Below, piece after piece: positions 7,969 to 61,617 of a stretch of DNA of 64,000 nucleotides. How positions within the stretch are numbered: the first letter of the stretch is position 1; each line of letters starts with the position of its first letter. Location of the stretch: NCBI GenBank assembly GCA_016218085.1, contig JACREY010000021.1, positions 124,001-188,000 on the forward strand, given 5' to 3'. Source of the DNA: Ignavibacteriota bacterium (GTDB lineage Bacteria; Bacteroidota; Ignavibacteria; Tepidaquicellales; Tepidaquicellaceae). The notes under the pieces were generated by a model. The model ran no database searches. It worked only from the letters and a program-made list of their open reading frames with translations, and was not told the DNA's origin. Both the position numbers and the translations under genes were made by a program.

Positions 7969-7979
7969 AACGAACAAAG

Positions 7980-8597
7980 ATGAAAGAAAAAGAACTTATT
8001 ATAAAATACGCAGGAAAAAGATTTTACGATGAGGGTTTTCATAAAATCTCAATGGACGAAATTGCCTCAGGTCTGAGGATGAGCAAGAAAACGATTTACA
8101 AGCATTTCCCTACGAAGGACAACCTTATAGAATCACTTATCGATTACGAATGCGAATATCACCTAATAAAGGAAGTTGCCATTCTCGGCCAGAAGATAGG
8201 CGTGATAAAAATGATACTTCAGATGATTGAATTCAACCTCGGCGATTTATCGAAGTACAGCGAAAAATGGATACAGGACCTTCAGAACCTGAAGCCCGAA
8301 CTCTGGGATAAATATCTTCAGTTCAAGCACAACAAGCACGATACATATTTCAAAAAACTGATGGCACAAGGAAGGAAGGAAAAGCTGATAAAAGATATTC
8401 CGCTCGAACTGATATTATCAGGAATAGAATCAATTGTAAAGAATGTGCTTCACTCCGATTTTCTCGTCCGAAACAATCTTTCGATAAACCAGGCACTTAA
8501 CTATTCAATAGACATTCTCGTGAGCGGAATTCTCACGGAAAAAGGCAATAAAATATACAGAAAAGAAAAGAAATTATTAAAATTATTTAAAAAGTGA
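7980..8597 (+). CDS. TetR/AcrR family transcriptional regulator
   Basis: 205 residues. The N-terminal helix-turn-helix is clear (MDEIASGLRMSKKTIYKHFPTKDNL, about residues 24-48), with the usual recognition-helix sequence KKTIYKHF. The C-terminal ligand domain is divergent, as is normal. It is the first gene of a four-gene run (4 bases to the TolC gene), and a palindrome sits on its own promoter, so it probably represses itself and the efflux genes until an inducer binds. The inducer is unknown. The start at 7980 follows an A-rich leader with no strong ribosome-binding sequence. Confidence 0.93.
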   Translation: MKEKELIIKYAGKRFYDEGFHKISMDEIASGLRMSKKTIYKHFPTKDNLIESLIDYECEYHLIKEVAILGQKIGVIKMILQMIEFNLGDLSKYSEKWIQDLQNLKPELWDKYLQFKHNKHDTYFKKLMAQGRKEKLIKDIPLELILSGIESIVKNVLHSDFLVRNNLSINQALNYSIDILVSGILTEKGNKIYRKEKKLLKLFKK

Positions 8598-8601
8598 CAA
8601 A

Positions 8602-9912: not shown

Positions 9913-9957
9913 ATTCAAATGAAAATTAAAAAGCTTAAAAAGAATAATTACAATACA

Positions 9958-10992: not shown

Positions 10993-11022
10993 TTATTTAA
11001 TAATGAAATAACCTAAAAGATT

Positions 11023-14220: not shown

Positions 14221-14241
14221 ACATATTTATTAATTTAGATT

Positions 14242-14281
14242 AGCTTTACTGAATACAAAATTCAGTAAAGCTTTTCTTTTT
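14242..14281 (+). terminator. Terminator of the RND efflux operon
   Basis: Perfect 13-bp stem AGCTTTACTGAAT (14242-14254) with ATTCAGTAAAGCT (14260-14272), 5-nt loop, then a T-rich run. It ends only about three bases before the mtnA start codon, so mtnA must be transcribed from within or across it. Confidence 0.9.
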
Positions 14282-14283
14282 TT

Positions 14284-15387
14284 ATGCTGGTAAAAAATAA
14301 ACATTATATCACTATCTGGATTGATAAAAATAATCCCAAAGTTGTCAGAACAATTGACCAGACACTTCTCCCCCATCAATTTAAAATTGTCTCTTTAAAA
14401 TCTTCTGATGAAATTATAAAAGCTATCAGAACAATGATTGTACGCGGTGCGCCGCTGATAGGTGTTTCGGCGGCTTACGCAATTTATCTCGCTGCGCTCG
14501 AAGCCCAAAAAAAATGCAGGACAATCTACCAATTTGACAGGTATATTTTTAAAAAATCAGAAGAAATAAAAAATACACGCCCTACTGCCGTAAATATTTC
14601 CTTTGCCGTCAATGAATCTTTGAAAGTATTAATGAAAGAAAATACAATTGAGGATAAAATTGCTGCTGCACTAAACTGTGCGAGCTTGTTATCCGTGCAG
14701 GAAATCCTGAACTGCAAAAAAATCGGTGAGTACGGATTAAATATTATCGGGAAAATCTCGAAATCAAAGAAAGGAAAAACCGTAAACATCCTAACCCATT
14801 GCAATGCAGGATGGCTGGCTTGCATAGATTACGGTACTGCAACAGCTCCGATTTATTTTGCACATAAAAAAGGAATTAAACTCCACGTTTACGTGGAAGA
14901 AACCCGCCCCCGTAATCAGGGAGCAAGTCTTACTGCCTGGGAGTTTCTTCAGAATAAAATTCCGCATTCAATCATCACGGACAATGCCGGAGGATATGTT
15001 ATGCAGAAAGGAATGGTAGATATGGTAATAGTCGGTTCGGACAGGACTACTTTAAGCGGTGATGTCTGCAATAAAATCGGTACATATAAAACTGCACTGG
15101 CGTCAAAGGACAATAATATACCTTTTTACGTTGCTCTTCCATCTTCTTCAATTGATAAAAAAATCAAAAACGGACTGACGGAAATCCCTATTGAAGAAAG
15201 AAACCTGGATGAAGTCAAATATATTTCAGGAAAATCCGGTAAAAGAATAGAAAAAATTCTGATAACTCCGCTTAAGAGCAAAGCAAAAAATTACGGCTTC
15301 GATATAACTCCTGCTCGTTTAGTAACGGCTCTTATAACTGAAAGAGGTGTGGTGAAACCAATAAAATCAGAAATATCAAAGATTTAA
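14284..15387 (+). CDS. mtnA: S-methyl-5-thioribose-1-phosphate isomerase
   Basis: 367 residues. MtnA converts 5-methylthioribose-1-phosphate to methylthioribulose-1-phosphate in the methionine salvage pathway. Family marks are seen: MIVRGAPLIGVSAAYA near residue 58, the catalytic Cys173 in THCNAGWLA and the catalytic Asp253 in VIVGSDRTT, then NKIGTYKTALAS. Length and motifs separate it from the eIF2B subunits of the same superfamily. No other salvage gene is adjacent. The start lies directly after the terminator of the previous operon. Confidence 0.95.
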   Translation: MLVKNKHYITIWIDKNNPKVVRTIDQTLLPHQFKIVSLKSSDEIIKAIRTMIVRGAPLIGVSAAYAIYLAALEAQKKCRTIYQFDRYIFKKSEEIKNTRPTAVNISFAVNESLKVLMKENTIEDKIAAALNCASLLSVQEILNCKKIGEYGLNIIGKISKSKKGKTVNILTHCNAGWLACIDYGTATAPIYFAHKKGIKLHVYVEETRPRNQGASLTAWEFLQNKIPHSIITDNAGGYVMQKGMVDMVIVGSDRTTLSGDVCNKIGTYKTALASKDNNIPFYVALPSSSIDKKIKNGLTEIPIEERNLDEVKYISGKSGKRIEKILITPLKSKAKNYGFDITPARLVTALITERGVVKPIKSEISKI

Positions 15388-15413
15388 AGTGCCTTGGTGC
15401 TCTTTATTCTTCA

Positions 15414-15449
15414 AATATTACAAATCTTAAGAATCTTACGAATCTTTAA
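15414..15449. repeat. 9-bp degenerate tandem repeat patch
   Basis: Four units of the form AAATATTAC / AAATCTTAAG / AATCTTACG / AATCTTTAA in the gap between mtnA and rplY. The periodicity is similar to that of the patches at 19049 and 35174. Confidence 0.5.
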
Positions 15450-15467
15450 TCAATATCAAAAATAGAA

Positions 15468-15498
15468 TTGATAAATTTCATTAAAATCAATATCTTTG
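15468..15498 (+). promoter_or_regulatory. Promoter of rplY-pth
   Basis: TTG (15468-15470), 20 bases, TATCTTTG (15491-15498), a perfect TAnnTTTG box 27 bases before the rplY start codon. Confidence 0.65.
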
Positions 15499-15525
15499 AG
15501 CTTGTTTAAATTTTATAGATAAAAA

Positions 15526-16173
15526 ATGGCAGAAATTATTTTAAAAGCAGAGCGCAGAACAGATTTTAAAAAATCTACTTCAAACCAGATGAGAAAAGCC
15601 GGAATTATTCCCGGTATTTATTATTCTTTTGGAGAAGAGCCGATTCCCATAAAAGTAAATGAACTTTCACTTCGTCCTTTTGTTTTCACTTCGGAATCTC
15701 ATATTGTAAGCCTTCAGATAGAAGGTGAAAGCAAACCGTTAAGCTGTATTTTAAAAGATACCCAGTTTGAACCTATCACAAGCAGAATAATACATTTTGA
15801 CTTAATAGGACTTAAAGAGGGTGAATTACTTACAATCGAAGTTTCGATATTGCTTAAAGGCAGCGCAATCGGAGTAAAAGAAGGCGGAATAGTTCAGCAC
15901 AATCTGCACAAGCTTGAAATCAAATGTCTGCCCCAGAATATACCACCGCATATAGACGTGGACATCACGAATTTATCAATCGGTGATTCCATAAAGGTCA
16001 GTGACTTAAAATTTGAAGGTATTGAAATTTTGAACGAAGAAAACGCTTCGATAGTGTCAGTTGTTCCGCCTGTACAGGAAGCAAAGCCTGAAGAAGCGGC
16101 AGCAGCAGAAGCTCCGGCAGAACCAGAAGTTATTTCGAAGGGTAAGAAAGAAGAAACAGAGGAAAAGAAATAA
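15526..16173 (+). CDS. rplY: 50S ribosomal protein L25, long (TL5/CTC) form
   Basis: 215 residues. The first about 90 residues are the 5S rRNA-binding L25 domain (opening AEIILKAERRTDFKKS; LRKAGxIPGIxY-like stretch at about 24-35). The rest is the C-terminal CTC domain (LKGSAIGVKEGGIVQHNLHKLEIKC is the family hallmark region). The tail after residue 185 is Glu/Ala/Lys-rich and probably disordered. The gene precedes pth by 47 bases, a very common bacterial pairing. Confidence 0.95.
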   Translation: MAEIILKAERRTDFKKSTSNQMRKAGIIPGIYYSFGEEPIPIKVNELSLRPFVFTSESHIVSLQIEGESKPLSCILKDTQFEPITSRIIHFDLIGLKEGELLTIEVSILLKGSAIGVKEGGIVQHNLHKLEIKCLPQNIPPHIDVDITNLSIGDSIKVSDLKFEGIEILNEENASIVSVVPPVQEAKPEEAAAAEAPAEPEVISKGKKEETEEKK

Positions 16174-16220
16174 TTTCCTATTTCTAATTTTAGGAGTTCA
16201 AAGAAAAAATTAAAGATACT

Positions 16221-16865
16221 TTGAAACTAATAATAGGTCTTGGTAATCCGGGAAGTAAATATGAACTTACAAGGCATAATATTGGTTTTCAGATTTTAGA
16301 TTATTTAGCTGATTATTTAAAAGTTAAGTTTAAGCCATCAAAAGGCGAATGGTACGGGGCTTCAGGAAATTATAACGGGTTTGAGTTTTATTTTATGAAG
16401 CCCTTTACTTTTATGAACAACAGCGGTGAGGCAATATTCGATTTTCTCACCAATAATAATATTCCTTTAAATAATATTCTTGTGGTTTACGATGATTTCC
16501 AGATACCACTGGGAATGATTCGTTTGCGCACAAAGGGAAGTGACGGCGGGCATAACGGCATTGCAAGCATTATATACCGTCTGGAGACAATGTCTTTCCC
16601 GAGAATGAGAATAGGCATTGGAAAAGATCAGCTCATTAACAAAGGTGATTTTGTGGATTTCGTGCTGACAAAATTCAGCAGTGATGAAATAGAAGCCATG
16701 AAGGTAATGTTTCCTGTATATAAGGACTGCATATTAAGTTTTATATCCGGAAGTTTAGCTGACACAATGAATAAATACAACAGGAATTTCCTGAAAAAAG
16801 AAGAGGAGAAAGTTAAGAAAGAGGACAAAAAGCAGGATGAAAATCCTGATGAAAATAAAAATTAG
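16221..16865 (+). CDS. pth: Peptidyl-tRNA hydrolase
   Basis: 214 residues. It frees tRNA from prematurely released peptidyl-tRNA. The start is a TTG giving MKLIIGLGNPGSKYELTRHN; no in-frame ATG lies nearby upstream. The catalytic residues are in place: Asn9, His19 (equivalent to His20 of E. coli) and the Asp of VVYDDFQIPLG. GSDGGHNGIASI is the second family signature. Residues from about 190 on form a Lys/Glu-rich tail beyond the usual end of the enzyme. Confidence 0.95.
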   Translation: MKLIIGLGNPGSKYELTRHNIGFQILDYLADYLKVKFKPSKGEWYGASGNYNGFEFYFMKPFTFMNNSGEAIFDFLTNNNIPLNNILVVYDDFQIPLGMIRLRTKGSDGGHNGIASIIYRLETMSFPRMRIGIGKDQLINKGDFVDFVLTKFSSDEIEAMKVMFPVYKDCILSFISGSLADTMNKYNRNFLKKEEEKVKKEDKKQDENPDENKN

Positions 16866-49000: not shown

Positions 49001-49031
49001 TTGACTTCAAATTCTGAAAATAATAATTTTA
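49001..49031 (+). promoter_or_regulatory. Promoter of the T9SS-glycan gene cluster
   Basis: TTGACT (49001-49006), 17 bases, TAATTT (49024-49029); equally TTG-N20-TAATTTTA. It gives a leader of about 100 nt before the first gene at 49137. Confidence 0.5.
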
Positions 49032-49136: not shown

Positions 49137-49982
49137 TTGAATAAAAAGATTCAAAAAAGTAATTTATGCATTGTTTTACTTGCATTTATGCTGGGATTGA
49201 TTTTAACATCCTGCGAGAAAACGAATGACTCTGTGATAGACCCTTCGTATAAGTCCCCTCTTTTGAGCAATCCGTACAAATCAAAAGATACGGTTTTTAC
49301 GACTTCTTCAACACCTGTAATAAACCTAGTTTCATCGGTTTCGGTGAATACAAATGACGGGGGGGAAATAAAATCGGTTACCTGCAAGGTATATGCACCC
49401 GATAACACACTGATGGCGACTTATCCGATGAAGGACGACGGCTCAGCGCCTGATACGGTTTCGGGAGACGGAAGGTATTCCTGTCAGATAAACATCACGA
49501 ATATCAATTGCCTGCTGACAGGGCAATATTCGGTTCAGCTGATTGCGGAAAACACTGCCGGACTTGTCAGCAACCAGATAAATAGCACTGTGTTGGTAGT
49601 AATGACAAATAATCAGGCGCCGATAGTTTGGGGTTTGACTTCGCCAGACAGCATTGCAATTCCAACTTCGGGTATAAATGTAACCACGCTTGTAATAAAT
49701 GCGCTGGATTCAAACGGATATTGCGACATTAAAAGGGTTTTCTTTAATTCATACAGGCCAGACAGCTCAATAACAGGCGGAAGTCCGTTCGCTATGTATG
49801 ATGACGGAGATATAATAAACCACGGAGATACTACGGCGGCAGACGGAAAATTTTCCCTGATAATCAAAATAGAATCCACGCAGACAACAACAGGCTGGTA
49901 TACATTCAAATATCAGGCAGAGGATAATTCAGGACTTCACAGCAACCAGTATATCGGAAGAATAAATATTTATCGTCCATAA
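49137..49982 (+). CDS. Lipoprotein with two immunoglobulin-like repeats
   Basis: 281 residues, starting at a TTG. Lipoprotein signal with lipobox LTSC (Cys26). Two similar beta-domains follow; each ends in a run such as MKDDGSAPDTVSGDGRYS (about 98-115) and MYDDGDIINHGDTTAADGKFS (in parts, about 221-241), the form seen in Ig-like domains of surface proteins. No enzyme motif is present. It heads an eleven-gene run (3 bases to the next gene), and its role may be to assist the outer-membrane proteins encoded after it. Confidence 0.82.
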   Translation: MNKKIQKSNLCIVLLAFMLGLILTSCEKTNDSVIDPSYKSPLLSNPYKSKDTVFTTSSTPVINLVSSVSVNTNDGGEIKSVTCKVYAPDNTLMATYPMKDDGSAPDTVSGDGRYSCQINITNINCLLTGQYSVQLIAENTAGLVSNQINSTVLVVMTNNQAPIVWGLTSPDSIAIPTSGINVTTLVINALDSNGYCDIKRVFFNSYRPDSSITGGSPFAMYDDGDIINHGDTTAADGKFSLIIKIESTQTTTGWYTFKYQAEDNSGLHSNQYIGRINIYRP

Positions 49983-49985
49983 AAA

Positions 49986-51617
49986 ATGAATATGAAAAAA
50001 TATAATATAATATTATTAATAATCTTATTAATTACAGGTTTTCTGAAAGCGCAGCAGTATGTGTTTCCGACTGAATACCAGCTGTCGGATATTAAATTCA
50101 AAGTATATAAAAGTGAATTTGACAGGAAGCCGGCATCAATAGCAGTAAGTCCGAATAAATCAAAATACCCGGTAAGCAATTTCATAATCAGGATGTTTCC
50201 CTTCGGCGATACGACCTGGTTTTCGACGGGAAGCGGCCTGATGAGAACGACCGACAGATTTAATAGTTTTGAAAATTATTACGGACTTGAGCCATTCGGG
50301 AAAGACGATTTATCGGGGCTTGCAGTTTTAAATAATGTAGTGGTAGTAGCAACGGCAACGAGCGAGGAAATCAGCGGTGAAAGCGTAGCAGTCGGCACGG
50401 GGATAAAAGTTTCAACCGATTACGGTATTCATTGGAATTCATATCCACAGCCGATTGACGGCAGGTATGACACTACAATAACTTACGGAAGCAACCAGAT
50501 ATACGCTTTGCCCGTTGTTGTTCCCCAGCAGAATCTTTCATACGACATTGCCATAACAAAGACAAAAAACGACCCTTTAAATTACACAATCTGGATAACA
50601 TCCTGGGGTGGAGGTTTGAGAAAATCAACGGACTACGGAAGCACCTGGCAGAGAGTTGTTTTACCTCCCGATAATCTCGACAGTATTGTGGTAACGCAAA
50701 CAGGATATACATTTGCAGTTAACGTGAGGAATAACAGAAACCAGACACCTTTTTGCGTTAAGGCGCTGAACGATTCAACACTTTTCGTCGGGACAGCAAA
50801 CGGAATAAACAAATCAACCGACTGGGGTTTAAGCTGGAGGAAATACAATTACCAGAACACGGGACCCGGGGTGAATAAAGTTTCCGGAAATTTTGTAGTG
50901 AACCTGCACGTTCAGAAATACGGCGGAAAGAATATTTTATGGGCTGCAACGAGGTTTGCCGAGGATAAGAACGAAAAGAATGCATTCAGTTACACTACAA
51001 ATTCGGGACTGAACTGGGCTTATACTCTTACAGAAAATCCTCCGAGAAACATCAGCTCGAAAGATTCAGTAGTATTCTGTGAATCGGAAAGCGGGTTGTG
51101 GAGAAGCTATTTCGGTAAATTTGACTGGACAAAGCCGGGACTGATATATGATGAAGTAACCAAAGACCAGCTAAGGACGAGTTATTTTTATTCGGGCATG
51201 AACCTGAATGACACTGTTTATTTCGGTAGCGCAGACGGGCTCTGCAGGACGATAGAGAACGGACAATCCTGGACAAGCAAATGGAAAATATACAGGGCAA
51301 TGAAATCCATAGACCTCAATTCGGATTTAAAGACATACGCGGCACCGAATCCTTTTGCCCCTAACAATGAAGTGGCAAGAATATTTTACAAAACGGGAAA
51401 AGCAACATCTAAAATCACTATAAAAGTTTTTGATTTCGGGATGAGCCCGGTGAGAACGGTGATTCAGAATGCAACAAGGAACAGCCCCGATGAGCTTTTC
51501 ACAATATGGGACGGAAAAAACAACGACGGCAATCAGGTTGCAAACGGTGTTTATTTTTACAGGATAGAAATTGACAACGATACACCCGTTTGGGGGAAAA
51601 TTTTAGTAATTCAATAA
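49986..51617 (+). CDS. Secreted propeller protein with C-terminal FlgD-Ig-like domain
   Basis: 543 residues. Signal peptide (MKKYNIILLIILLITGFLKAQ after two extra residues). The body has propeller-type repeats (KVSTDYGIHWNSYP, RKSTDYGSTWQRV, NKSTDWGLSWRKY). The last 80 residues match the FlgD Ig-like fold (TIKVFDFGMSPVRTVI ... IWDGKNNDGNQVANGVYFYRI), related to but distinct from the NYPNPFNP sorting domains elsewhere in this window. It is probably exported to the surface. It is co-transcribed with the PorV/PorQ-like genes. Confidence 0.82.
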   Translation: MNMKKYNIILLIILLITGFLKAQQYVFPTEYQLSDIKFKVYKSEFDRKPASIAVSPNKSKYPVSNFIIRMFPFGDTTWFSTGSGLMRTTDRFNSFENYYGLEPFGKDDLSGLAVLNNVVVVATATSEEISGESVAVGTGIKVSTDYGIHWNSYPQPIDGRYDTTITYGSNQIYALPVVVPQQNLSYDIAITKTKNDPLNYTIWITSWGGGLRKSTDYGSTWQRVVLPPDNLDSIVVTQTGYTFAVNVRNNRNQTPFCVKALNDSTLFVGTANGINKSTDWGLSWRKYNYQNTGPGVNKVSGNFVVNLHVQKYGGKNILWAATRFAEDKNEKNAFSYTTNSGLNWAYTLTENPPRNISSKDSVVFCESESGLWRSYFGKFDWTKPGLIYDEVTKDQLRTSYFYSGMNLNDTVYFGSADGLCRTIENGQSWTSKWKIYRAMKSIDLNSDLKTYAAPNPFAPNNEVARIFYKTGKATSKITIKVFDFGMSPVRTVIQNATRNSPDELFTIWDGKNNDGNQVANGVYFYRIEIDNDTPVWGKILVIQ

Positions 51618-51635
51618 AAAATTAATTTTACTTTA

Positions 51636-52670
51636 ATGTATAAAAAGATTTTTTTAATAATAACGGTTTTAATCACAGCACAGATAAGTGTTTACGGACA
51701 GTCAGGGAGTTTTGCCGGAAGTTTTGCCAGGATGGGTTTCGGAGCGAGAGGACTATCAATGGGAAATGCGATGGTATCTGATATTTTCGGAGATGTGAAC
51801 GGATATTACAATCCTTCGCTTGCCTGTTTTCAGGAGGAAGGTTTTCTGAACCTGGGATACACTGCAATGACGCTGGACAGGCGGATGAATTTTGTCGGTT
51901 TTGCAAGGAAGTTTAAGATGCCCAGCAATAACAAAGGCGGTGCAGGAATATCGCTTTCGTGGATAAATGCAGGAGTATCCAACATAGACGGCAGGGATAA
52001 CGACGCACAGGAGTTAGGTGAGCTGTCCACATATGAAAACCAGTTTTATCTGGGCACGGGATTCCTGCTCGATGAAAATTTTGCATTCGGAGTGGGATTC
52101 AAGCTATATTATTCAAAGCTTTACGATGAAGTCAAGACCAATTCTATCGGTTTTGACATTGGGGCTGTATATAAATTAAGGCCTGACCTGAGTCTGGGAT
52201 TTGCAATCAGGGATATTTCAGCAAGGTACAAATGGGAAACAAACAAAATATACGGCGAGCAGGGTACGACAACGGAAAATAAATTCCCTGTTCTCACGGA
52301 CCTTGGTGCAACATACCTGTTGCCGAATAATTTCGGAATTGCATCGATACAATTTGAGACTTTAGTAAATCCGGGGTTCGAATCGAAAGATTCGACAGGG
52401 ATAACCGTAAAGAGCGACAAGACATACGATTACATTATAAAAGCAGGAACAGAAATCAGGTTATCCGAAAACCTGAAGATCCGTGCAGGAATAGACAGGA
52501 TGGACTTAAAGTCGGACGACTTTTTTGGCAACATTAAACCCGGTTTTGGTGTTGGATTCTATAAGGCAATGGGCAAGGAAACAAAACTGGGTATAGATTA
52601 TTCATTCCAGCTGGAGCCATACACTCACGACGGAATTCACAATGTGAGCATAGGATTTAAATTTAAATAA
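51636..52670 (+). CDS. PorV/PorQ family outer-membrane protein (first copy)
   Basis: 344 residues. Signal peptide (MYKKIFLIITVLITAQISVYGQ), then the family opening GSFARMGFGARGLSMGNAM (about 28-46) and FGDVNGYYNPS, typical of PorV/PorQ (UPF0164-like) 14-stranded barrels. The rest alternates aromatic and Gly-rich strands and ends in FKFK, as outer-membrane barrels do. In T9SS, PorV shuttles cargo to the attachment complex and PorQ works with PorZ and PorU; which role applies here cannot be told. Another copy follows 43 bases later. Confidence 0.86.
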   Translation: MYKKIFLIITVLITAQISVYGQSGSFAGSFARMGFGARGLSMGNAMVSDIFGDVNGYYNPSLACFQEEGFLNLGYTAMTLDRRMNFVGFARKFKMPSNNKGGAGISLSWINAGVSNIDGRDNDAQELGELSTYENQFYLGTGFLLDENFAFGVGFKLYYSKLYDEVKTNSIGFDIGAVYKLRPDLSLGFAIRDISARYKWETNKIYGEQGTTTENKFPVLTDLGATYLLPNNFGIASIQFETLVNPGFESKDSTGITVKSDKTYDYIIKAGTEIRLSENLKIRAGIDRMDLKSDDFFGNIKPGFGVGFYKAMGKETKLGIDYSFQLEPYTHDGIHNVSIGFKFK

Positions 52671-52713
52671 TTTATTTGCACAAAAGTTAGTATATTTATT
52701 ATTCAATAAAATA

Positions 52714-53610
52714 ATGAGAAAATATTTTTTAACAGCACTGGTTTTATTATTTACGGCAAATGCTTTTTCGCAGAATGACGGCAGTGCAAATACGGGCTTA
52801 TCATTCCTGAAGCTCGGAGCGGGAGCAAGGTCGATGGCAATGGGAGATGCATATTCATCAGTCTGCAACGACGGTACAGCATTTATTTACAATCCTGCAA
52901 GGTTAAATGCGGGACCCGACAACAATGTAACCCTGATGTACAATTCCGCAATGCAGGACCTTACAAACAATTACATCGGAGCAAAAGTAAGGTACAGCAA
53001 GCTGGGCATCGGGTTCGGCCTGCTGAAGACATCGGTTTCGGACATCGAAGTAAGGACAATTCCCGGAGCACTGATTGACAAGTTCGATGCACAGAATCTG
53101 GCAATGGGAATATCACTAAGTTACGAGATATACAAAAATCTTTCCTTTGGCATTACTTCAAAACTGATTTACGAAAAGATATACATTGAAGAAGCGTCAG
53201 GCGTAGGATTTGATTTCGGGACAAATTACAGCAGAGATAATTACAGCTTATCGTTTGTACTTTCAAATCTCGGTTCGATTAACGAACTGAAGGACGCAAG
53301 CACCAAGCTTCCAAGTTCAGTTAGATTCGGGGGAGCATATAACATAAAGAAAAATAATCTCGATATAATACTTGCGCTTGAAGGATACAAGGTACTTGAC
53401 GGAGGCAAGCTGCATATAAATTCCGGAGCTGAAATCGGCTACAAGGACCTATTATATGTAAGGTTAGGCTACCAGACCGCATATGAAAACAAGGGATTTA
53501 CTTCAGGTATAGGATTGAAATACAAAGGGATTCTACTTGATTATGCATTTATTCCTTATTCGGATTCATTCGGAGCCAGCAATACTATTTCATTAGGTTT
53601 TAACTTCTGA
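52714..53610 (+). CDS. PorV/PorQ family outer-membrane protein (second copy)
   Basis: 298 residues. Signal peptide (MRKYFLTALVLLFTANAFSQ), then LSFLKLGAGARSMAMGDAYS and GTAFIYNPARL, the PorV/PorQ signature. It is shorter than the first copy and ends in LGFNF, a barrel-type C-terminus. Its stop overlaps the GT39 start (TGATG), so the outer-membrane part and the glycan part of the cluster are translationally joined. Same functional limits as the first copy. Confidence 0.86.
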   Translation: MRKYFLTALVLLFTANAFSQNDGSANTGLSFLKLGAGARSMAMGDAYSSVCNDGTAFIYNPARLNAGPDNNVTLMYNSAMQDLTNNYIGAKVRYSKLGIGFGLLKTSVSDIEVRTIPGALIDKFDAQNLAMGISLSYEIYKNLSFGITSKLIYEKIYIEEASGVGFDFGTNYSRDNYSLSFVLSNLGSINELKDASTKLPSSVRFGGAYNIKKNNLDIILALEGYKVLDGGKLHINSGAEIGYKDLLYVRLGYQTAYENKGFTSGIGLKYKGILLDYAFIPYSDSFGASNTISLGFNF

Positions 53611-55283
53611 TGTTAAATAAAATATTAAATTATTTAAACGACGTAAAAAACATTTACAGGATATTTTTTTTTATCGTCGTTTTTTTATGTATTGTAAAAC
53701 TGCCGCCCTTAATTACAGCTGATATCCAGCCCTGGGATGAAGGGATGTACGCAGCACGCGTATTATCGATTTCGGAAAACGGTGATTTCATTGACCAGAG
53801 CAGTCATTCCGTCGGGAAATTTTATTCGGGCTCGCATCCTCCGCTTCTAATCTGGATAGGTTATTTCAGTTCACTGATATTCGGTCTTAACTCTGTCACG
53901 CTGAAGATGATTCCTTTTATATTCAGCCTGCTCTGCTTACTTCTGCTGATTTTAATCGGGAAGGAAATGTTCAGTCCGCTAGCGGGAATAACAGCGGCGC
54001 TTATTTTTTCGGGTAACATCATATTCAATATTTTTTCAAAGAGATTCCAGTTTGACATACCATATACTTTTTTTATTCTTCTGTCGTTCTATTTTTTCCT
54101 GCTATATCTTTCGAAGAAAAAGACAGCATACAACATACTTGGCGGGGTTGCATTCGGATTGTGCCTGATGGTTAAAATTCTCGTAGGTTTTTACATCCCG
54201 ATAATCATTTTCATATTTTACCTATTCACCAGAAAGAAAACCGGATACAGGTTTACGGACCTTTTGATATTTTCCTTAACCGGAATAATTATCTCTCTTC
54301 CCTGGCATCTGTACATGCTTTCGGCGCACGGCACGGATTTTCTGGATTACTTTTTCAGGTTTCACATATTTGACAGGGCTTTTTCCGGAGTTGAGCATAA
54401 CACAAAGGGTTCGGGATATTTTTACCATATAAACTACCTGCTGTCAATAATTCCATTTGGTATACTGATTTTCATATCAACAATAAAGGACTTTATAGAA
54501 ATTAAAATCATTGGAATAAAGAAACTATTTCTGGTTATCTGGTTCCTTACGGGTCTGGTGATAATTACGCTGTTTAAGACGAAGCTTGAGGTATACATAC
54601 TATTGATACTTGCACCGGGGAGCTTATTGCTTGCAGAGTATCTTCTCCGACTGAATGATTTATCCGCAAAGGAAAAAAACACTATAATATTTCTCACAGC
54701 ACTGAATATTATCTGGTCCATCACGCTTATATTAAGGGACAGCCTTCAATACAGGGAATTACTTTTTAAAAATATATTTATTGTTTCAACCGTGATGCTA
54801 ATTTCCGGAATAGTTTTATTTTTTGTAATAAAATTAATTTCGGACAGGATAACTATTGTAAATTTCTATTATTTATTTATTTTTCTATTTTGTACAGGTA
54901 TAAATGTATATTACCTATTCCGGGTACCGGAGTGGGAAGATACATACAGGATAAGAGAAGTAAAGGAAATGATTGAAACCGGCGGAAGCAGTGGAATAAT
55001 ATACATAAGCCCGAATTACAGGGCAAACCCGCAACTGAGCTTTTACTTTAACGGAATTGACCTTGGCTGGGGCAAGTGCAGATACAGATTCGAACTGCTC
55101 GAGACAAAAAACGGAACTGATAAAATAATAAACAGACTGTCAGAGTTGAGAGATAAAGAAAGCGATGTGATTGTTGAGACGGATAACATAAACAGAAGCG
55201 AATACACGGAAGCCGGAAAATTTATTCCGGGAAATTTCAGATTAATTTATAAAACAAGGGGTTACGAACTTTACAGGAAATAA
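53610..55283 (+). CDS. GT39-type (ArnT/PMT-like) membrane glycosyltransferase
   Basis: 557 residues with about 11 membrane helices. The first periplasmic loop has ADIQPWDEGMYAARVLSI with the Asp-Glu pair that is the catalytic mark of ArnT/PMT-type (GT-C) enzymes. YFFRFHIFDRAFSG is a second typical loop. Such enzymes move a sugar from a polyprenyl-phosphate carrier to lipid A, protein or another acceptor on the outer side of the inner membrane. The C-terminal 120 residues are soluble. The acceptor is unknown; its place directly after the PorV-like genes suggests work on exported surface molecules. Confidence 0.87.
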   Translation: MLNKILNYLNDVKNIYRIFFFIVVFLCIVKLPPLITADIQPWDEGMYAARVLSISENGDFIDQSSHSVGKFYSGSHPPLLIWIGYFSSLIFGLNSVTLKMIPFIFSLLCLLLLILIGKEMFSPLAGITAALIFSGNIIFNIFSKRFQFDIPYTFFILLSFYFFLLYLSKKKTAYNILGGVAFGLCLMVKILVGFYIPIIIFIFYLFTRKKTGYRFTDLLIFSLTGIIISLPWHLYMLSAHGTDFLDYFFRFHIFDRAFSGVEHNTKGSGYFYHINYLLSIIPFGILIFISTIKDFIEIKIIGIKKLFLVIWFLTGLVIITLFKTKLEVYILLILAPGSLLLAEYLLRLNDLSAKEKNTIIFLTALNIIWSITLILRDSLQYRELLFKNIFIVSTVMLISGIVLFFVIKLISDRITIVNFYYLFIFLFCTGINVYYLFRVPEWEDTYRIREVKEMIETGGSSGIIYISPNYRANPQLSFYFNGIDLGWGKCRYRFELLETKNGTDKIINRLSELRDKESDVIVETDNINRSEYTEAGKFIPGNFRLIYKTRGYELYRK

Positions 55284-55285
55284 TC

Positions 55286-56260
55286 TTGGACATACACAAA
55301 GTTGAAATATCGAATAACAGGGAATGGAACGAGATTCTGAACATTGATTATAATATGTTTTATGACAACAAATTCATTTCCTACAATGATCATTTCGGAA
55401 AGAATATAAAATGGCATCATCTGGTAATCAGGGGGAGAGACAAGAACAAGACAATTGCAATCCTTAACGGATGCGAAAAGACAAGGAACGGGAAGAAGCT
55501 TTATGTTTCCTGTGACGGAGTCAGTTTTGGCGGGTTTCACTGGCGTGACAAGCTTAACGTAGTGGATTACATTGAAATAATCGCTTCGTTCAAGGAATAT
55601 CTTGGTAAGAATAATTTTGACTCATGCATAATCAGAAATCAGCCGACTCTTTATTTGAAAAATCCAAACGAGGAGTATGATTATGCGTTAATAAACCAAG
55701 GATTTATTATTTCGAACAATTCAATTACAAATATTATAAGTCTGAATGAATTCGAATTTGAAAAGCTGACAAATCCCAAAAAGCGCGCCATACAGAAATC
55801 GGAGAAGAACATCGAAATTCAGATGATCAACGATAACATCACCACAGATTCCCTTAAAACTTACTATGATGTACTTTTCAGGAACAGGCAGTCCAAGAAT
55901 GTCACCCCAACACACACTCTTGAAGAGCTTGTATACCTTAAAAACAAGCTTCCTGAAAAGATTATCTTTTTCTCAGCACTAATAAACGGGGAAATAGCAG
56001 GGGTATGCATTCTCTTCCTTGTAAAAAAAGATGTTGTACTGAACTTTTATCTTGCAACGGATGAGAATTTCAAGAAAGACAGGGTTGCGGATTTTTTACT
56101 TTACAAATCTATTGAATGGGCAAAGAAAAGCAATTTCCGTCTGTATGATATAGGCACATCCAATGTCGGAATAAATTTTCTCGAGGGCTTGTTCGAATTT
56201 AAGAAGAAATTTATGGCAAACGGTTTTCTGAGGAAGACGTTTGAATTTTACATAACTTAA
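55286..56260 (+). CDS. FemAB/GNAT-type acyl or aminoacyl transferase
   Basis: 324 residues, starting at TTG. The fold is suggested by two GNAT-like halves; the second (residues about 200-290: KIIFFSALINGEIAGVCILFL ... ATDENFKKDRVADFLLYKSIEWAKK) matches the FemAB/BioF2-like acetyltransferase group, common in exopolysaccharide clusters. It probably acylates or peptidylates a sugar amine. The first half is divergent. It lies 2 bases after the GT39 gene and 11 before the SDR gene. Confidence 0.75.
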   Translation: MDIHKVEISNNREWNEILNIDYNMFYDNKFISYNDHFGKNIKWHHLVIRGRDKNKTIAILNGCEKTRNGKKLYVSCDGVSFGGFHWRDKLNVVDYIEIIASFKEYLGKNNFDSCIIRNQPTLYLKNPNEEYDYALINQGFIISNNSITNIISLNEFEFEKLTNPKKRAIQKSEKNIEIQMINDNITTDSLKTYYDVLFRNRQSKNVTPTHTLEELVYLKNKLPEKIIFFSALINGEIAGVCILFLVKKDVVLNFYLATDENFKKDRVADFLLYKSIEWAKKSNFRLYDIGTSNVGINFLEGLFEFKKKFMANGFLRKTFEFYIT

Positions 56261-56271
56261 AATAATTTTTT

Positions 56272-57237
56272 ATGGCAATCAGAAACAAAAGAATATTACT
56301 GACCGGAGGAGGCGGATTTATCGGAAGCAAACTCGCCGAAGCGCTGGGAAGGGATAATGAAATTCTGGTTTATGATATATTTTTAAGAGACTCACTGAAG
56401 TACAAGAAAATAAACAGGAAGAATTTTACAGTAATAGACGGAGACATCCTCGACTACGACAAGCTGAAAAAAGCATGCGAAGATTTCAGACCTCAGGTAG
56501 CTGTACACCTTGCGGCAATAGCGGGTGTGGATACAGTGATAAGAAATCCAATCCGCACAATGGATATAAACATAGTCGGAACCATGAATTTTCTTAAAGC
56601 ATTAAAAAAATATTCTCACAATCTGGAAAGAGTTGCGAACCTTTCCACGAGTGAGGTTTTGGGAGCATATTCATATAAATCCAGCGAGAAATCAGGAACG
56701 AAGTTTGCGCCTGTAGGCGAAGCCCGCTGGACATACTCAGTCAGCAAGGTAGCTGGTGAGCACCTTGCATACAGTTTTTACAAGGAATACGGATATCCAA
56801 TAGTCACAATCAGGCCTTTTAATATATACGGCCCAGGACAGATCGGAGAAGGGGCGATTCAGATATTTATAAAGAATGCAGTAAGGAATAAGAATATTGA
56901 AATCCACGGCGACGGCGACCAGATACGCTCCTGGTGTTACATAGACGATATGATGGACGGGATAATGCTTTCTCTTACAAATAAAAAAGCTATAGGAGAA
57001 ATTTTTAACATAGGTAATCCGAAGGGTACAGTAACTATCAGTTCCCTGGCGGAAAAAATAGTAGCTTTATGCAAGACAAAATCGAAAATCATTTATGTGC
57101 TAAAAAATTATGTTGATGTAGAGCTAAGAATTCCAACAATCGAAAAGGCAGAAAGGCTTCTCGGGTACAAGCCGAAGGTGGATTTGAACGACGGAATAGT
57201 TAAGACATTTGCCTGGTATAAAAAATATCTGAAATAA
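56272..57237 (+). CDS. NAD-dependent sugar-nucleotide epimerase/dehydratase (extended SDR)
   Basis: 321 residues. NAD-binding GGGGFIGSKLAEALG (about 12-26); catalytic LSTSEVLG and YSVSK (the Tyr-x3-Lys pair); then RPFNIYGPGQIGEGAI and GDGDQIRSWCYIDD, all typical of UDP- or GDP-sugar 4-epimerases and 4,6-dehydratases. The exact reaction cannot be told. It probably supplies a modified nucleotide sugar to the glycosyltransferases of this cluster, perhaps the amino sugar precursor used by the formyltransferase next door. Confidence 0.9.
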   Translation: MAIRNKRILLTGGGGFIGSKLAEALGRDNEILVYDIFLRDSLKYKKINRKNFTVIDGDILDYDKLKKACEDFRPQVAVHLAAIAGVDTVIRNPIRTMDINIVGTMNFLKALKKYSHNLERVANLSTSEVLGAYSYKSSEKSGTKFAPVGEARWTYSVSKVAGEHLAYSFYKEYGYPIVTIRPFNIYGPGQIGEGAIQIFIKNAVRNKNIEIHGDGDQIRSWCYIDDMMDGIMLSLTNKKAIGEIFNIGNPKGTVTISSLAEKIVALCKTKSKIIYVLKNYVDVELRIPTIEKAERLLGYKPKVDLNDGIVKTFAWYKKYLK

Positions 57238-57242
57238 AACAT

Positions 57243-58172
57243 TTGGAAAATAAACCGAAATATTTTTATCTTGCTCATGGGGTAATGGCGCTGGAGGGTT
57301 TAAAAGGGTTGATAGTCAGAAATTATACTCCGGAGTTTGTTATCGTTCATAAGGATTACGATATTCAAAAAATGCATGAAAGTTTCTATTCACCGATAGA
57401 AAAGTTATGTTCAGATTATGATATTCCGCTGATAAAATCAGAAAAGCTGGCTGGTCAGAAGGATAATTTCAGAAATTTTGATTTCGGTATCAGTGCCGGA
57501 TTCATGGAGATAATCGGGAAAGATGTTTTTGGAATTCCGAAGCACGGGATTATCAACCTGCACTGCGGGAAACTTCCGTTTTACAGGGGCAGGGCGCCGA
57601 TATCAAGGACTATAATGGATGGGAACAAATACCTTACAATTTCTCTGCATAAGATTGATGAAGGTGTGGATTCGGGCGATTTACTCATCGAGCATAATAT
57701 CGAAATCGGGATTGATGACGATGTAAATTCGCTTTATAAAAAATGCTGTGAACAGGCTGCGGACATGCTGATTAAAGGTGTCGAAAAATTATTCTCGGGT
57801 GAAGAAGATATATTCACGGCGCAGGATTTATCCCTGAAAGAAAAGCCCAATAAGAAAATCACTGATGCAGAGAGAAGAATAAACTGGGTAAAGAGCGTAG
57901 AAGCAATTCACAATTTAATCAGGGCACTGACAATTCCCTATCCGTGCGCATACTCTGAATATGACAGCAAAAAATACAATTTCATAAAATCGGAGATATT
58001 CGACAGGGACAGGTGCAACGCAAGGCAGCCCGGAGAATTGTATTTTGCAGATGATGAATACATTCTTATAAACTGCGTGGACGGATTAATTAAGATAACT
58101 GAAATAAGGGATGAAAATAATCAGAAAATAAATTACGAAGAAATTTTTAAACCGAGAGGCATATTCAGATGA
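57243..58172 (+). CDS. Formyltransferase of the methionyl-tRNA/sugar N-formyltransferase family
   Basis: 309 residues, TTG start. The formyl-THF catalytic core is INLHCGKLPFYRGRAP (Asn-x-His, about 112-127) and IDEGVDSGD (catalytic Asp). A C-terminal domain like that of Fmt/ArnA follows (RRINWVKSVEAIHNLIRAL, PYPCAY). In a glycan cluster the likely substrate is an amino sugar nucleotide, giving an N-formyl sugar; the housekeeping fmt would normally lie near def. Its stop overlaps the next start by four bases (ATGA). Confidence 0.85.
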   Translation: MENKPKYFYLAHGVMALEGLKGLIVRNYTPEFVIVHKDYDIQKMHESFYSPIEKLCSDYDIPLIKSEKLAGQKDNFRNFDFGISAGFMEIIGKDVFGIPKHGIINLHCGKLPFYRGRAPISRTIMDGNKYLTISLHKIDEGVDSGDLLIEHNIEIGIDDDVNSLYKKCCEQAADMLIKGVEKLFSGEEDIFTAQDLSLKEKPNKKITDAERRINWVKSVEAIHNLIRALTIPYPCAYSEYDSKKYNFIKSEIFDRDRCNARQPGELYFADDEYILINCVDGLIKITEIRDENNQKINYEEIFKPRGIFR

Positions 58173-58900
58173 AAATAATAGACGGGCATATTCATATAGG
58201 AAAATGGAGCAATTTATTTTTTAATTACGAAACAACGGTGGAGCAGGCAGCAGCTATTATGAAAAGAGCCAGAATAGAAGGAGCCGTATGCCTTCCTGCA
58301 GATGACACACCAAATATTAAGCTGCTAACTGAAACAAAAAGCAGAAATGATTTTAATTTTTATTTTGCTGCCTGGATAAATCCGGATGATAAGGAACTTG
58401 ACAGTTTTCTGGAGAATAATTTAAATGATGTTTCACTTTTTAAATTTCATCCATCTGTACAGAGAAGAAGAATTACAGATGAATCATACAGGAAATACAT
58501 TGAGCTGGCATCTGAAACGGGGAAGCCAATTGTTGTTCACTGCGGGAGATGGCAGGAAATCGCATCTTATAAATTCCCGCTTGAGCTAGCAAGGAAATAT
58601 CCGACGTTGAAGATAATACTTGCTCATCTCGGGGGTGACCAGCCGTCAATATACCTTGAATGCGCAAGGGAAGTCAGTACATTAAAATCAGGAAATATTT
58701 TTCTCGGTACCGAATCTGTTAGAGAATTTTACTTCGTAAACGAAGTTGTAAAGACAGTCGGCGCCGATAAAGTTATTTTCGGAAGCGATTACAATCTCGG
58801 ATTACCGGAGATGTATATTCCTGTAATCGAGAACCTATCCGTTTCAAATGAAGAGAAGGAAATGATTTTTTCGGGAAATATTTTAAGAATATTAAAATAA
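58169..58900 (+). CDS. Amidohydrolase-type metal-dependent hydrolase
   Basis: 243 residues. The TIM-barrel metal site is visible: DGHIHIG (residues 5-11), PIVVHCGRW near 112, ILAHLGG near 150, and FGSDYNLG near 197, giving H-x-H, H, H and D in order. This is the compact amidohydrolase-2/TatD-like group. Deacetylation or lactone/amide cleavage of a sugar or precursor is possible in this setting; the substrate is unknown. It overlaps the formyltransferase gene by four bases. Confidence 0.83.
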   Translation: MKIIDGHIHIGKWSNLFFNYETTVEQAAAIMKRARIEGAVCLPADDTPNIKLLTETKSRNDFNFYFAAWINPDDKELDSFLENNLNDVSLFKFHPSVQRRRITDESYRKYIELASETGKPIVVHCGRWQEIASYKFPLELARKYPTLKIILAHLGGDQPSIYLECAREVSTLKSGNIFLGTESVREFYFVNEVVKTVGADKVIFGSDYNLGLPEMYIPVIENLSVSNEEKEMIFSGNILRILK

Positions 58901-58906
58901 TATTCA

Positions 58907-59965
58907 TTGCAGGGAAAAGTACTGAAAATATTGCATATTGCACCACAGAATTTCGCAGGAATGCCGATGGACTTCGTGAATATGCACAGGGAATCGGGGA
59001 TTGAATCAAGGCTAATCACAATTTACAAGAACACACTAAACTTCGAGGAAGATATTGCATTGAATCTTCCTATCCGAACGGGAAAATTCGCAAAAAAATG
59101 GAGAGACAGTAAAATAGATGAATTAAGATATTACAAGCCGAAAAATTTTCTTGAAGCTGCATATTTCAAATTCAGGGATTTCAAGAATAAAAATAATATC
59201 AACTACTATATTGACAACTACAATCTCTATGATTATGATATTTACCATTTCGACGGCGGGATGGACCTTTTCAGGGACTTGCGGTTTGCTAAAGAATTGA
59301 AAAAACGCGGGAAGAAAATTATCTGTTGCTATTTCGGCAGCGATTTAAGAACAAGGGGCATATTCAAGGAGCTTGACGACATGAGCGAGCTTAATCTTAC
59401 GGTCGAATATGACCATCTGGCACTTTACAAGGATTTGCATTATCTTTTTTTTCCGTTTGACACGAAAAGCTATCCATATTTTTTTAAATTCAGTCCGAAA
59501 GTAAAAATTATTCACTCCCCCACTAACAGGATTTTCAAGGGTACAAATAAAATTCTTAAAATAATCGAGGAGCTTAAGAAAGAGCGTGATTTCGAATTCA
59601 TTCTTGCAGAAAATATGGACAGGGAAAAGGTGCTCAAGCTAAAGCGCGAATGCAACCTAGCGATAGACCAGGTAGGCGGAGAGCTTGGCGGGACTGGATA
59701 CGGCAAGAATTCCATCGAAAATCTTTCAATGGGGCTGCCGACCATCACTGAATTTGCAGGGGATTACCTAAATTTCATTCCGGAAAATCCGTTTATTACA
59801 TGCGATATAAATTCCCTGAAAGATTCCCTGACAAGATTAATTGACAATACGGAATTGCTGAAAACATATTCCGAAAAAGGAAGGAAATGGGTGGAAAAAT
59901 TTCATTCATTCGAATCAGTCAATGCAGGATTAATGGATTTATACAAATCAAAAAATATTATTTAG
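58907..59965 (+). CDS. GT-B type glycosyltransferase (GT4-like)
   Basis: 352 residues, TTG start, giving KVLKILHIAPQNFAGMPMDF. The C-terminal half has the nucleotide-sugar-binding pattern of GT4 enzymes in loose form: IDQVGGELGGTGYGKNSIE with the conserved Glu, then LSMGLPTITE and a closing helix (SEKGRKWVEKFHSFE). The N-terminal half is poorly conserved, as is normal for acceptor domains. No membrane helix; it acts at the cytoplasmic face, adding a sugar to the lipid-linked glycan that the next gene's product flips. Confidence 0.8.
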   Translation: MQGKVLKILHIAPQNFAGMPMDFVNMHRESGIESRLITIYKNTLNFEEDIALNLPIRTGKFAKKWRDSKIDELRYYKPKNFLEAAYFKFRDFKNKNNINYYIDNYNLYDYDIYHFDGGMDLFRDLRFAKELKKRGKKIICCYFGSDLRTRGIFKELDDMSELNLTVEYDHLALYKDLHYLFFPFDTKSYPYFFKFSPKVKIIHSPTNRIFKGTNKILKIIEELKKERDFEFILAENMDREKVLKLKRECNLAIDQVGGELGGTGYGKNSIENLSMGLPTITEFAGDYLNFIPENPFITCDINSLKDSLTRLIDNTELLKTYSEKGRKWVEKFHSFESVNAGLMDLYKSKNII

Positions 59966-59968
59966 CAG

Positions 59969-61444
59969 ATGGCTAAGTCACACGTAAAGGAACTATTCTC
60001 TCATACCGCTATTTACGGCGCAGGCATAATGCTTAATAAATTTCTGTCATTCCTACTTATTCCCGTTTACACATTTTATTTTTCACCGTCCGATCTCGGA
60101 TTGTATAATCTTATTCAGTCTTTATGGCTGTTCATAATCCTGATATATGTTTACGGAATGGAGACATCCTTCATAAAATTCTTTATCGACGCAAAAGATG
60201 AAAAGAAGAAAACAGAAATTTACTCAACATCCTTAATTCTGATAACTTTAACTTCAATAATCTTTTCGGGTATTCTTTACATTTTTGCGGGAAATATAAG
60301 CAGTTCAATAGGATTCGAGAATATTGAAAAAGGAAAATACCTCATAAAAATACTCAGCATATTGCTGTTCTTTGATACAATATCGCGATTTCCGCTTTTG
60401 TTATTGCGCGCAGAACTTAAGGCAAAAACATATTTATTTCTATCGGTTTCGACTCTAATGATAAACTTATCCCTGAACATATTTTTCATTATGTTCATAA
60501 AGCTGAATGTAGAAGCAATCCTGTACAGCTACATAATATCGGTTATTTATACACTAGCTGCCGGAATGATAATAACAAAGAAATTCTTCTCATTAAAATT
60601 CTCTTTTCAGGAAGCAAAAGCACTGGTTGTTTACGGAAATAAGTTCATTTATTTCGGTTTATTCCTGCTGCTCATCGATGTTTCGGACAGGTTTTTTCTT
60701 AAGTATTATTTTGATGAAAGTGTTGTTGGCATATACAGTGCAAGCTACCGGCTTGGAACGGTAATGAGTTTAGCGATAGCGGCATTCAGGTTTTCCTGGA
60801 CTCCTTATTTCCTAAACATTGCCGATAATCCTGATAACAAAAGGATTATACCGGAGATTTTCACATATTTTGTTTTTGCAGGTTTAATTCTTTTTCTTTT
60901 CTTTGCTTTTTTCACGGAGCCAATAGTAAAATTTTCAATAGGAGGATATTCACTGCTGGATTCAAAGTATTACGGCGGACTTGTAATTATCCCGATTATC
61001 CTTCTTTCTTATTTTTTCTCAGGGCTTTTCGCAAATATGAACGTAGTGCCGTTTTATGCAAATAAAACTTCAATATTATTATTGATTTCATCCGAGGGTT
61101 TATTATTGAATGTTATACTTAATGTCATATTAATCCCAAAATATATGATGTTAGGAGCAGCATACTCCACTTTGATTACATATGCCGTTATGTTTATTCA
61201 TATTTATTTCCTATCCCAAAAAATTTACAAGATTAAATATCAATGGCGTGAAATATTGATTCTGTCTGCATTTTCGTTGATTCTGTTTTCTGCATACTAT
61301 TATGTTCAGAATTACACCGGAATAAGAATATCACTAAAAGTGGCTATATATATATTTCTTTTAACAGTTTTTTTAGCCATTTCCAACCTTTTCAAAATCA
61401 TAAAAATAAGTAGCATAAAACTACTAATTAAGCGCGGTTCTTAA
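59969..61444 (+). CDS. Polysaccharide flippase (Wzx/MATE-like oligosaccharide exporter)
   Basis: 491 residues with 12-14 membrane helices spread through the chain. It opens with LFSHTAIYGAGIMLNKFLSF and has SPSDLGLYNLIQSLW, the usual pattern of Wzx-type lipid-linked oligosaccharide flippases; VVGIYSASYRLGTVMSLAI marks the second half. It would move the finished glycan-lipid across the inner membrane. It is the last gene of the co-directional run starting at 49137. No ligase (WaaL) or polymerase (Wzy) gene is visible in the cluster. Confidence 0.9.
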   Translation: MAKSHVKELFSHTAIYGAGIMLNKFLSFLLIPVYTFYFSPSDLGLYNLIQSLWLFIILIYVYGMETSFIKFFIDAKDEKKKTEIYSTSLILITLTSIIFSGILYIFAGNISSSIGFENIEKGKYLIKILSILLFFDTISRFPLLLLRAELKAKTYLFLSVSTLMINLSLNIFFIMFIKLNVEAILYSYIISVIYTLAAGMIITKKFFSLKFSFQEAKALVVYGNKFIYFGLFLLLIDVSDRFFLKYYFDESVVGIYSASYRLGTVMSLAIAAFRFSWTPYFLNIADNPDNKRIIPEIFTYFVFAGLILFLFFAFFTEPIVKFSIGGYSLLDSKYYGGLVIIPIILLSYFFSGLFANMNVVPFYANKTSILLLISSEGLLLNVILNVILIPKYMMLGAAYSTLITYAVMFIHIYFLSQKIYKIKYQWREILILSAFSLILFSAYYYVQNYTGIRISLKVAIYIFLLTVFLAISNLFKIIKISSIKLLIKRGS

Positions 61445-61468: not shown

Positions 61469-61499
61469 TTGACATTTATTTATATAGTACTTATGTTTG
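61469..61499 (+). promoter_or_regulatory. Strong promoter with no gene behind it
   Basis: TTGACA (61469-61474), and TATGTTTG (61492-61499) 20 bases after the TTG: the best TAnnTTTG match in the window. Transcription would run into the terminator at 61576-61609. Confidence 0.6.
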
Positions 61500-61503
61500 T
61501 ACT

Positions 61504-61617
61504 GGATAATAATTGTGCAAGATGTTAGGTTGAGTATTTGCAAAAAAATAAGATTTACCCTTTCTTATTTTAATGAAATCCAGTCACCCCGCAACCAGTG
61601 GCTGGATTTTTTTTATT
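61504..61617 (+). ncRNA. Candidate small RNA, about 110 nt
   Basis: It is bounded by the promoter at 61469-61499 and the terminator at 61576-61617. A second hairpin (AAATAAG with CTTATTT near 61545-61570) precedes the terminator hairpin. No open frame of meaning is seen. The terminator could instead simply close the glycan cluster that ends at 61444. Confidence 0.4.
61576..61617 (+). terminator. Terminator of the glycan cluster or candidate sRNA
   Basis: AAATCCAGTCAC (61576-61587), 10-nt loop, GTGGCTGGATTT (61598-61609) with one T-G wobble, then a long T-run. Confidence 0.88.

Follow-up and report, generated by a model that had tools for sequence, protein, structure and literature searches.

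Why should outer-membrane proteins related to the type IX secretion system (T9SS) be encoded together with the enzymes of a glycan pathway? The question is raised by a stretch of 64,000 nucleotides from an Ignavibacteriota bacterium (G000:C14:124001-188000 of a genome of 3.3 Mb; the whole stretch is designated the window), in which eleven open reading frames (ORFs), g01 to g11, lie at positions 49137-61444, all of them on the + strand in the ORF listing. The first four genes, termed the quartet, code for a lipoprotein candidate, a secreted β-propeller protein with a C-terminal domain (CTD), and two PorV/PorQ-family barrels, and the following seven for the enzymes and the flippase of a predicted glycan pathway (Table 1). 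The shared operon suggests that the T9SS-related surface proteins and the glycan products act together on the cell surface. Retention of type IX cargo on the surface is understood from a small number of Bacteroidia, and with its defined set of genes the unit allows one to ask if attachment to the surface follows the same logic in bacteria outside the Bacteroidia.

In the reading that we prefer, and to which we assign a probability of roughly one half, the unit serves as a surface-glycan module associated with the type IX system: the propeller protein would reside on the operon's own barrels and there handle a lipid-linked glycan whose synthesis the same operon encodes. This reading is based on the gene order in the family and the class, the linkage of the FemAB-type gene g06 to the propeller gene g02, the repeated position of glycan genes behind the quartet despite differing glycosyltransferase (GT) families, the co-occurrence of g02 with the sortase PorU, the PorU-like CTD of g02, and the precedent of PorZ and PorQ.

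Conservation of the unit

The genes g01 to g11 are separated, in this order, by 3, 18, 43, -1, 2, 11, 5, -4, 6, and 3 bases, the negative values representing the overlaps TGATG at g04/g05 and ATGA at g08/g09. The ORF coordinates thus confirm an earlier reading made from the sequence alone (the sequence-only reading), which had described eleven rightward genes with gaps of at most 43 bases and these two overlaps. That PorV-family barrels and a glycan pathway are joined in one gene unit, as the same reading had stated, is borne out by the protein families and by the conserved gene order. A strong intrinsic terminator stands behind g11 (Table 1), and the upstream neighbours, an AMP-ligase-like gene and then nuo-like genes, are read in the opposite direction, which gives the unit clear ends.

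Forty stretches from relatives, several of whose genomes are fragmented, were gathered and the operon genes were mapped on them. All eleven genes are present in the same order in 13 of the 26 genomes of the same family (f1) with data, and most of the other gaps in this family represent contig ends or single losses. The formyltransferase gene g08 has been lost in seven of the 26 genomes (G002, G009, G013, G014, G015, G022, and G024), all of which retain g09. The unit of the sister family (f2) is composed of g01-g04, g06, an EpsG-like gene, a gene for an AsnB-type amidotransferase, g10, and g11; it has no g05, g07, g08, or g09. Many other Ignavibacteria contain g01-g04, g06, g10, and g11 without insertions, and in others different GT4, GT2, or GT9 (heptosyltransferase-like) genes come after the quartet. 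In 10 of the 13 class families examined (f1, f2, f3, f4, f8, f10, f12, f16, f18, and f20), one or more genomes have a glycan gene immediately behind the quartet. Outside f1, no operon was seen to contain g08, while the FemAB enzyme, a GT, and the flippase persist. The adjacency of PorV-family and glycan genes, whose lack of conservation in relatives would have spoken against the sequence-only reading, is kept across the family and the class Ignavibacteria. Conserved across so many genomes, the g01-g11 arrangement is far beyond chance. In 26 of the 32 class genomes with both genes, g06 is read in the same direction as g02 and lies downstream of it at a distance of about 6 kb or less (in two of the other six it is close but on the opposite strand, in four it lies elsewhere); the chance of finding a random gene at this place is about one in a thousand.

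Among 297 genomes of the phylum, g02 was found in 127, with one copy in all but two, and PorU (threshold E<=1e-100) in 197; both occur in 116 genomes, g02 alone in 11, PorU alone in 81, and neither in 89. PorU is present in 116 of the 127 g02-positive versus 81 of the 170 g02-negative genomes (odds ratio 11.6, Fisher p 2e-16, uncorrected for shared descent). As g02 occurs phylum-wide and mostly without glycan genes outside the class, the quartet is, judged by this distribution, older than the quartet-glycan unit. It represents an old, essentially single-copy outer-membrane set that is widespread in the phylum and stands beside a probable glycan partner in one class.

At L214 (580-4494) and at similar Ignavibacteriaceae loci, the quartet is repeatedly preceded, in the same orientation, by genes for a GT2 enzyme, a radical SAM protein, a secreted protein of 276 amino acids, and an M50 (site-2-type) protease.

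Features of the quartet and the glycan genes

Table 1 Features of the g01-g11 locus (positions in the window; bit scores refer to the family named)
Feature	Position	Strand	Description
Promoter-like site 5' of g01	49001-49031	+	TTG-N20-TAATTTTA; weak, pattern match alone
g01	49137-49982	+	Outer-membrane lipoprotein candidate; lipobox LTSC; choice-of-anchor X domain; TTG start
g02	49986-51617	+	Secreted beta-propeller protein with C-terminal CTD-like immunoglobulin (Ig) domain
CTD-like domain of g02	51318-51614	+	Amino acids 445-543
g03	51636-52670	+	PorV/PorQ-family outer-membrane barrel; NF033709 86.3 bits, just below cut-off 90
g04	52714-53610	+	PorV/PorQ-family outer-membrane barrel; NF033709 143.1 bits, above cut-off 90
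g05	53610-55283	+	GT39/ArnT-like membrane glycosyltransferase; PF13231 60.4 bits
g06	55286-56260	+	FemAB-fold GNAT-like N-acyl/aminoacyl transferase (VimA-like class); PF13480
g07	56272-57237	+	NAD-dependent nucleotide-sugar epimerase/dehydratase/decarboxylase (short-chain dehydrogenase/reductase, SDR); PF01370
g08	57243-58172	+	ArnA/Fmt-type formyltransferase; PF00551 and PF02911
g09	58169-58900	+	Amidohydro_2 metal-dependent hydrolase; PF04909 57.2 bits
g10	58907-59965	+	GT4-like (GT-B) glycosyltransferase; no Pfam family
g11	59969-61444	+	Wzx-type lipid-linked oligosaccharide flippase; PF01943 66.7 bits
Intrinsic terminator 3' of g11	61575-61610	+	13-bp stem, about -16.9 kcal/mol, then T run

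The conserved leading gene of the quartet is g01, whose product reaches 40.5 bits against NF041940 (cut-off 25). The g02 protein had not been singled out by the sequence-only reading; with its propeller and PorU-like CTD, it makes the surface part of the unit resemble PorZ:PorQ. Its AlphaFold2 model (pLDDT 86) contains a single propeller domain, and a Foldseek search with this model returned propeller proteins, among them PorZ (5m11) at rank 4 (E 2.7e-11) with a TM-score (TMq) of just 0.35, a low value that points to a likeness at the fold level only. Identity of g02 with PorZ was ruled out by the presence of one propeller rather than two and by the location of PF21544 elsewhere, namely only in a frame of 778 amino acids at C3:11601, which represents the PorZ of this genome. 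The bit scores of the g02 CTD obtained with a local hidden Markov model were 40-43 for PorU CTDs, 26-33 for the CTDs of type A cargo in the window, and 14-17 for PorZ CTDs. This domain also matches the PorU structure 6za2 (E 0.002), and the C-terminus, for which weak CHU_C/FlgD_ig matches were obtained, has a CTD-like end that is conserved down to the final residues. On these sequence comparisons, the g02 CTD is nearer to the PorU CTD than to those of type A cargo.

A tree built from 46 members of the PorV family places g03, g04, PorV, and PorQ in four distinct groups, each supported at 99-100 (100/100 for g03 and 100/99 for g04). According to this tree, g03 and g04 are two orthologous groups of their own, neither PorV nor PorQ, and two barrels that are lumped by general family models have thereby been assigned to defined groups. 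Canonical PorV/PorQ identity was ruled out by the tree together with the true genes found elsewhere in the source genome: PorU (870 bits) is encoded outside the window at C21:138494-141808 beside PorV, and PorQ was found with 245 bits, above its cut-off. The earlier idea that the barrels are the canonical cargo-anchoring ones is not supported, given these separate groups and the PorU, PorV, PorQ, and PorZ genes at other sites.

Type A sorting domains (TIGR04183) number at least 150 in the genome, which indicates a large type IX cargo set. Eight sorting-domain proteins had been proposed for the window; this count was checked in part, and 5 of the 10 large window ORFs scanned pass TIGR04183, approximately the number predicted from the genome-wide density. 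Since the window's count is about as expected and at least 150 such domains exist genome-wide, nothing ties the unit to the cargo genes of the window, and the suggestion that it is dedicated to them was abandoned.

Within the glycan part, the DE motif (43-44) of g05 is invariant in 22 of 22 orthologues, and the protein scores 79 bits against ArnT (cut-off 567). The g06 protein of the window matches TIGR03019 weakly (26.8 bits, cut-off 260), its counterparts in sister lineages and the class reach 57.8-77.5 bits, and an aminoacyl-tRNA-dependent peptide synthase was found among PDB entries (E 2.8e-6); on these profile scores, g06 may be a VimA-type transferase. The view that g06 is the only VimA of its genome holds, by TIGR03019, in the scanned sister-family genomes and fails in the source genome. 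A second cluster of the source genome (L295, G000:C6:22000-41900; 5236-16316) comprises a FemAB gene, two AsnB-type genes, an SDR gene, and an FkbM methyltransferase gene, and from its gene content is a candidate for the true linking-sugar or an exopolysaccharide cluster of this genome. In g07, STSEV, YxxxK, and R286 are invariant in 26 of 26 orthologues; the protein matches PDB 8vr2 with 329 bits and the next families, named sugar dehydratases and decarboxylases, with 128-142 bits. A literature search for 8vr2 returned nothing on the function of this entry.

The catalytic triad N105-H107-D143 of g08 is kept in 20 of 20 orthologues, and its structure matches are ArnA and Fmt, with sugar-type relatives among them. 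A housekeeping role as tRNA formyltransferase is unlikely, the genome containing two other formyltransferases and the close g08 relatives that were detected all belonging to this operon. No aminotransferase (DegT) is present among the families of the operon, and eight strong DegT genes lie elsewhere in the genome. Owing to the lack of an aminotransferase in the operon and the losses in the family, g08 is best seen as a variable decoration and not as part of the core; the N-formyl-sugar pathway that the sequence-only reading had placed at the centre is not supported as the core of the unit. The residues HxH, H124, H153, and D207 of g09 are invariant in 26 of 26 orthologues, and a formyltransferase-deformylase pair of g08 and g09 is unlikely, as g09 is retained where g08 is lost. 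For g10, the AlphaFold2 model (pLDDT 90) matches BshA, a GT4 enzyme, in Foldseek (E 6.6e-11, TMq 0.65), and the close named relatives are metagenome-assembled genomes of Ignavibacteria. An extra or relocated g10-g11 pair was observed at L200 and L217 (~9400-12500). It directly follows a KdsC-like (Kdo-8-phosphate phosphatase) gene at L200, and at L217 a gene of equal size occupies this place. L217 is apparently identical with contig G012:C8, in which g10 and g11 are missing from the main operon.

Between g11 and the terminator, a Bacteroidota-type promoter match, TTG-N20-TATGTTTG, is located at 61469, and both elements could delimit a transcript of ~100 nt between g11 and an hsp20 gene. An Rfam scan of the locus, including this putative short transcript (61469-61610), gave no match.

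Proposed function and alternatives

According to the surface-glycan module reading, an oligosaccharide linked to undecaprenyl would be built and decorated in the cytoplasm by the products of g06-g10, flipped by g11, and perhaps extended by g05 with a sugar at the periplasmic side; the glycan would then reach the surface, probably on lipopolysaccharide (LPS). The g02 protein would be exported by the T9SS via its CTD, and g03 and/or g04 would retain it at the outer membrane in the way that PorQ retains PorZ and PorV retains PorU. The g02 propeller would bind and present the operon's glycan, as PorZ binds anionic LPS (A-LPS), with g01 as the lipid-anchored partner of g02. Such a module may serve covalent anchoring of cargo, the display of one protein, or the delivery of glycan. 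Beyond the argument of the sequence-only reading, a link to type IX attachment is favoured because g06 proteins of the class match TIGR03019, the family of VimA, because g06 is the only such match in the sister-family genomes G029-G033 (one of these five consists of two contigs and was scored 100% complete), and because the operons of these genomes also carry the AsnB-type amidotransferase gene. More tentatively, the quartet may form a second, previously undescribed station for type IX attachment or presentation alongside PorU-PorV-PorQ-PorZ, at which a PorZ-like propeller on its own PorV-family barrels would read a lineage-specific linker glycan whose genes were captured into the operon in Ignavibacteria.

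Several observations weigh against the module. No glycan gene lies directly behind the quartet in the families f6, f13, and f19, and outside the class, where the quartet is kept, a GT-like gene follows it in one family (f23) of about a dozen examined. The g02 protein has one propeller and not two, and its structural match to PorZ is confined to the propeller level (TMq 0.35). Two other FemAB genes of the source genome, one of them clustered with AsnB-type genes, outscore g06 on TIGR03019. Finally, PorU was not detected at E<=1e-100 in eleven g02-positive genomes (G113, G133, G160, G171, G198, G221, G244, G248, G252, G316, and G323). In G133 (L157), g02, g03, and g04 stay together with no PorU detected, and therefore the quartet may survive without the sortase.

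Such genomes would also be expected if the operon made LPS core or O-chain and the quartet were an outer-membrane assembly or structural unit independent of the T9SS, its PorV-family barrels being used otherwise. The GT9 heptosyltransferase-like genes behind the quartet in several families and the g10-g11 pair beside a KdsC-like gene in two genomes agree with this explanation; it is nevertheless unlikely in view of the CTD-like end of g02, conserved to its last residues and most similar to that of PorU, and of the strong co-occurrence with PorU. Not quite as unlikely, yet doubtful, is a covalent glycan anchor for type IX cargo, equivalent to A-LPS, which would be made by the operon and served by g02-g04 as a second attachment station. 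This would explain the FemAB/VimA-type enzyme, GT, and Wzx flippase of the conserved core, the AsnB-type gene of the sister family, the PorZ/PorQ-like surface part in the same operon, and the occurrence of PorU in nearly all g02 genomes. However, PorU, PorV, PorQ, and PorZ are encoded elsewhere in the genome, some members of the class contain PorU without g02, the operon genes include no WbpA/B/D/E or CE4 deacetylase (VimE) family, and the FemAB and AsnB-type cluster at L295 could make the linking sugar instead.

Quartet and glycan genes part in some lineages (including G191, G199, G207, and G233), as would neighbours in a convenient transcription unit with functionally unlinked products; the repeated association with differing GT sets over 10 families and the g06 linkage in 26 of 32 genomes make this improbable. 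A very low probability is given to an Arn-like pathway that would use an aminopentose, formylated or deformylated, to modify lipid A or core, and in which g07 and g08 would correspond to a split ArnA, g05 to ArnT, and g09 to a replacement of ArnD. The best named matches include ArnA and ArnT, and g07 has invariant TSE, YxxxK, and R, which we take to be the residues of ArnA/UXS-type decarboxylases. Nonetheless, the scores are far below the cut-offs (ArnT 79 of 567 bits), no ArnB, ArnC, or ArnD family is found in the operon, g09 persists in the genomes without g08, and g07 is much nearer to PDB 8vr2 than to ArnA.

Comparison with known systems

In the open-access literature on type IX genes in Ignavibacteria, no earlier description of the unit was found, although one may exist. 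With the ArnA/ArnT aminoarabinose pathway, the unit shares an adjacent formyltransferase, decarboxylase-type SDR, and ArnT-like GT; it differs in the missing ArnB, ArnC, and ArnD and in scores well below the cut-offs. Cargo proteins with a type B CTD and their cognate PorP/SprF shuttles (PMC12618676) are comparable in that a CTD protein is encoded beside its own outer-membrane barrel, but the barrels of the unit belong to the PorV/PorQ family, its CTD is Ig-like, and glycan genes are added.

In Porphyromonas, the sugar joined to cargo is proposed to receive serine or glycine through VimA (FemAB/GNAT, TIGR03019), and it is amidated by the AsnB-type WbpS (PMC7468200). For the full A-LS pentasaccharide linker, described in 2026, assembly on undecaprenyl pyrophosphate and flipping were proposed, VimF being the final GT (PMC13086638). 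Like the Wbp/Vim pathway and the A-LS linker (PMC7468200, PMC13086638), the unit combines a FemAB-type (VimA-like) transferase, a nucleotide-sugar enzyme, a GT, and Wzx, and the sister-family operon adds an AsnB-type amidotransferase. Unlike that pathway, it lacks the Wbp dehydrogenase, aminotransferase, and acetyltransferase and the CE4 deacetylase (VimE) and contains a formyltransferase and an Amidohydro_2 enzyme instead; the g06 of the window, moreover, scores just 26.8 bits on TIGR03019, so that its likeness to VimA is tentative.

A-LPS is bound by PorZ, a propeller protein whose CTD stays uncleaved and which PorQ retains (PMC8545088, PMC5562754). The unit is similar to the T9SS attachment complex PorU-PorV-PorQ-PorZ with A-LPS (PMC5562754, PMC8545088) in possessing a surface propeller with a CTD, PorV-family barrels, and a dedicated glycan. 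In contrast to this complex, its barrels form groups of their own, g02 has one propeller and no match to PF21544, and the unit, which is without the PorU sortase, adds the lipoprotein g01 and carries its glycan genes in the same operon.

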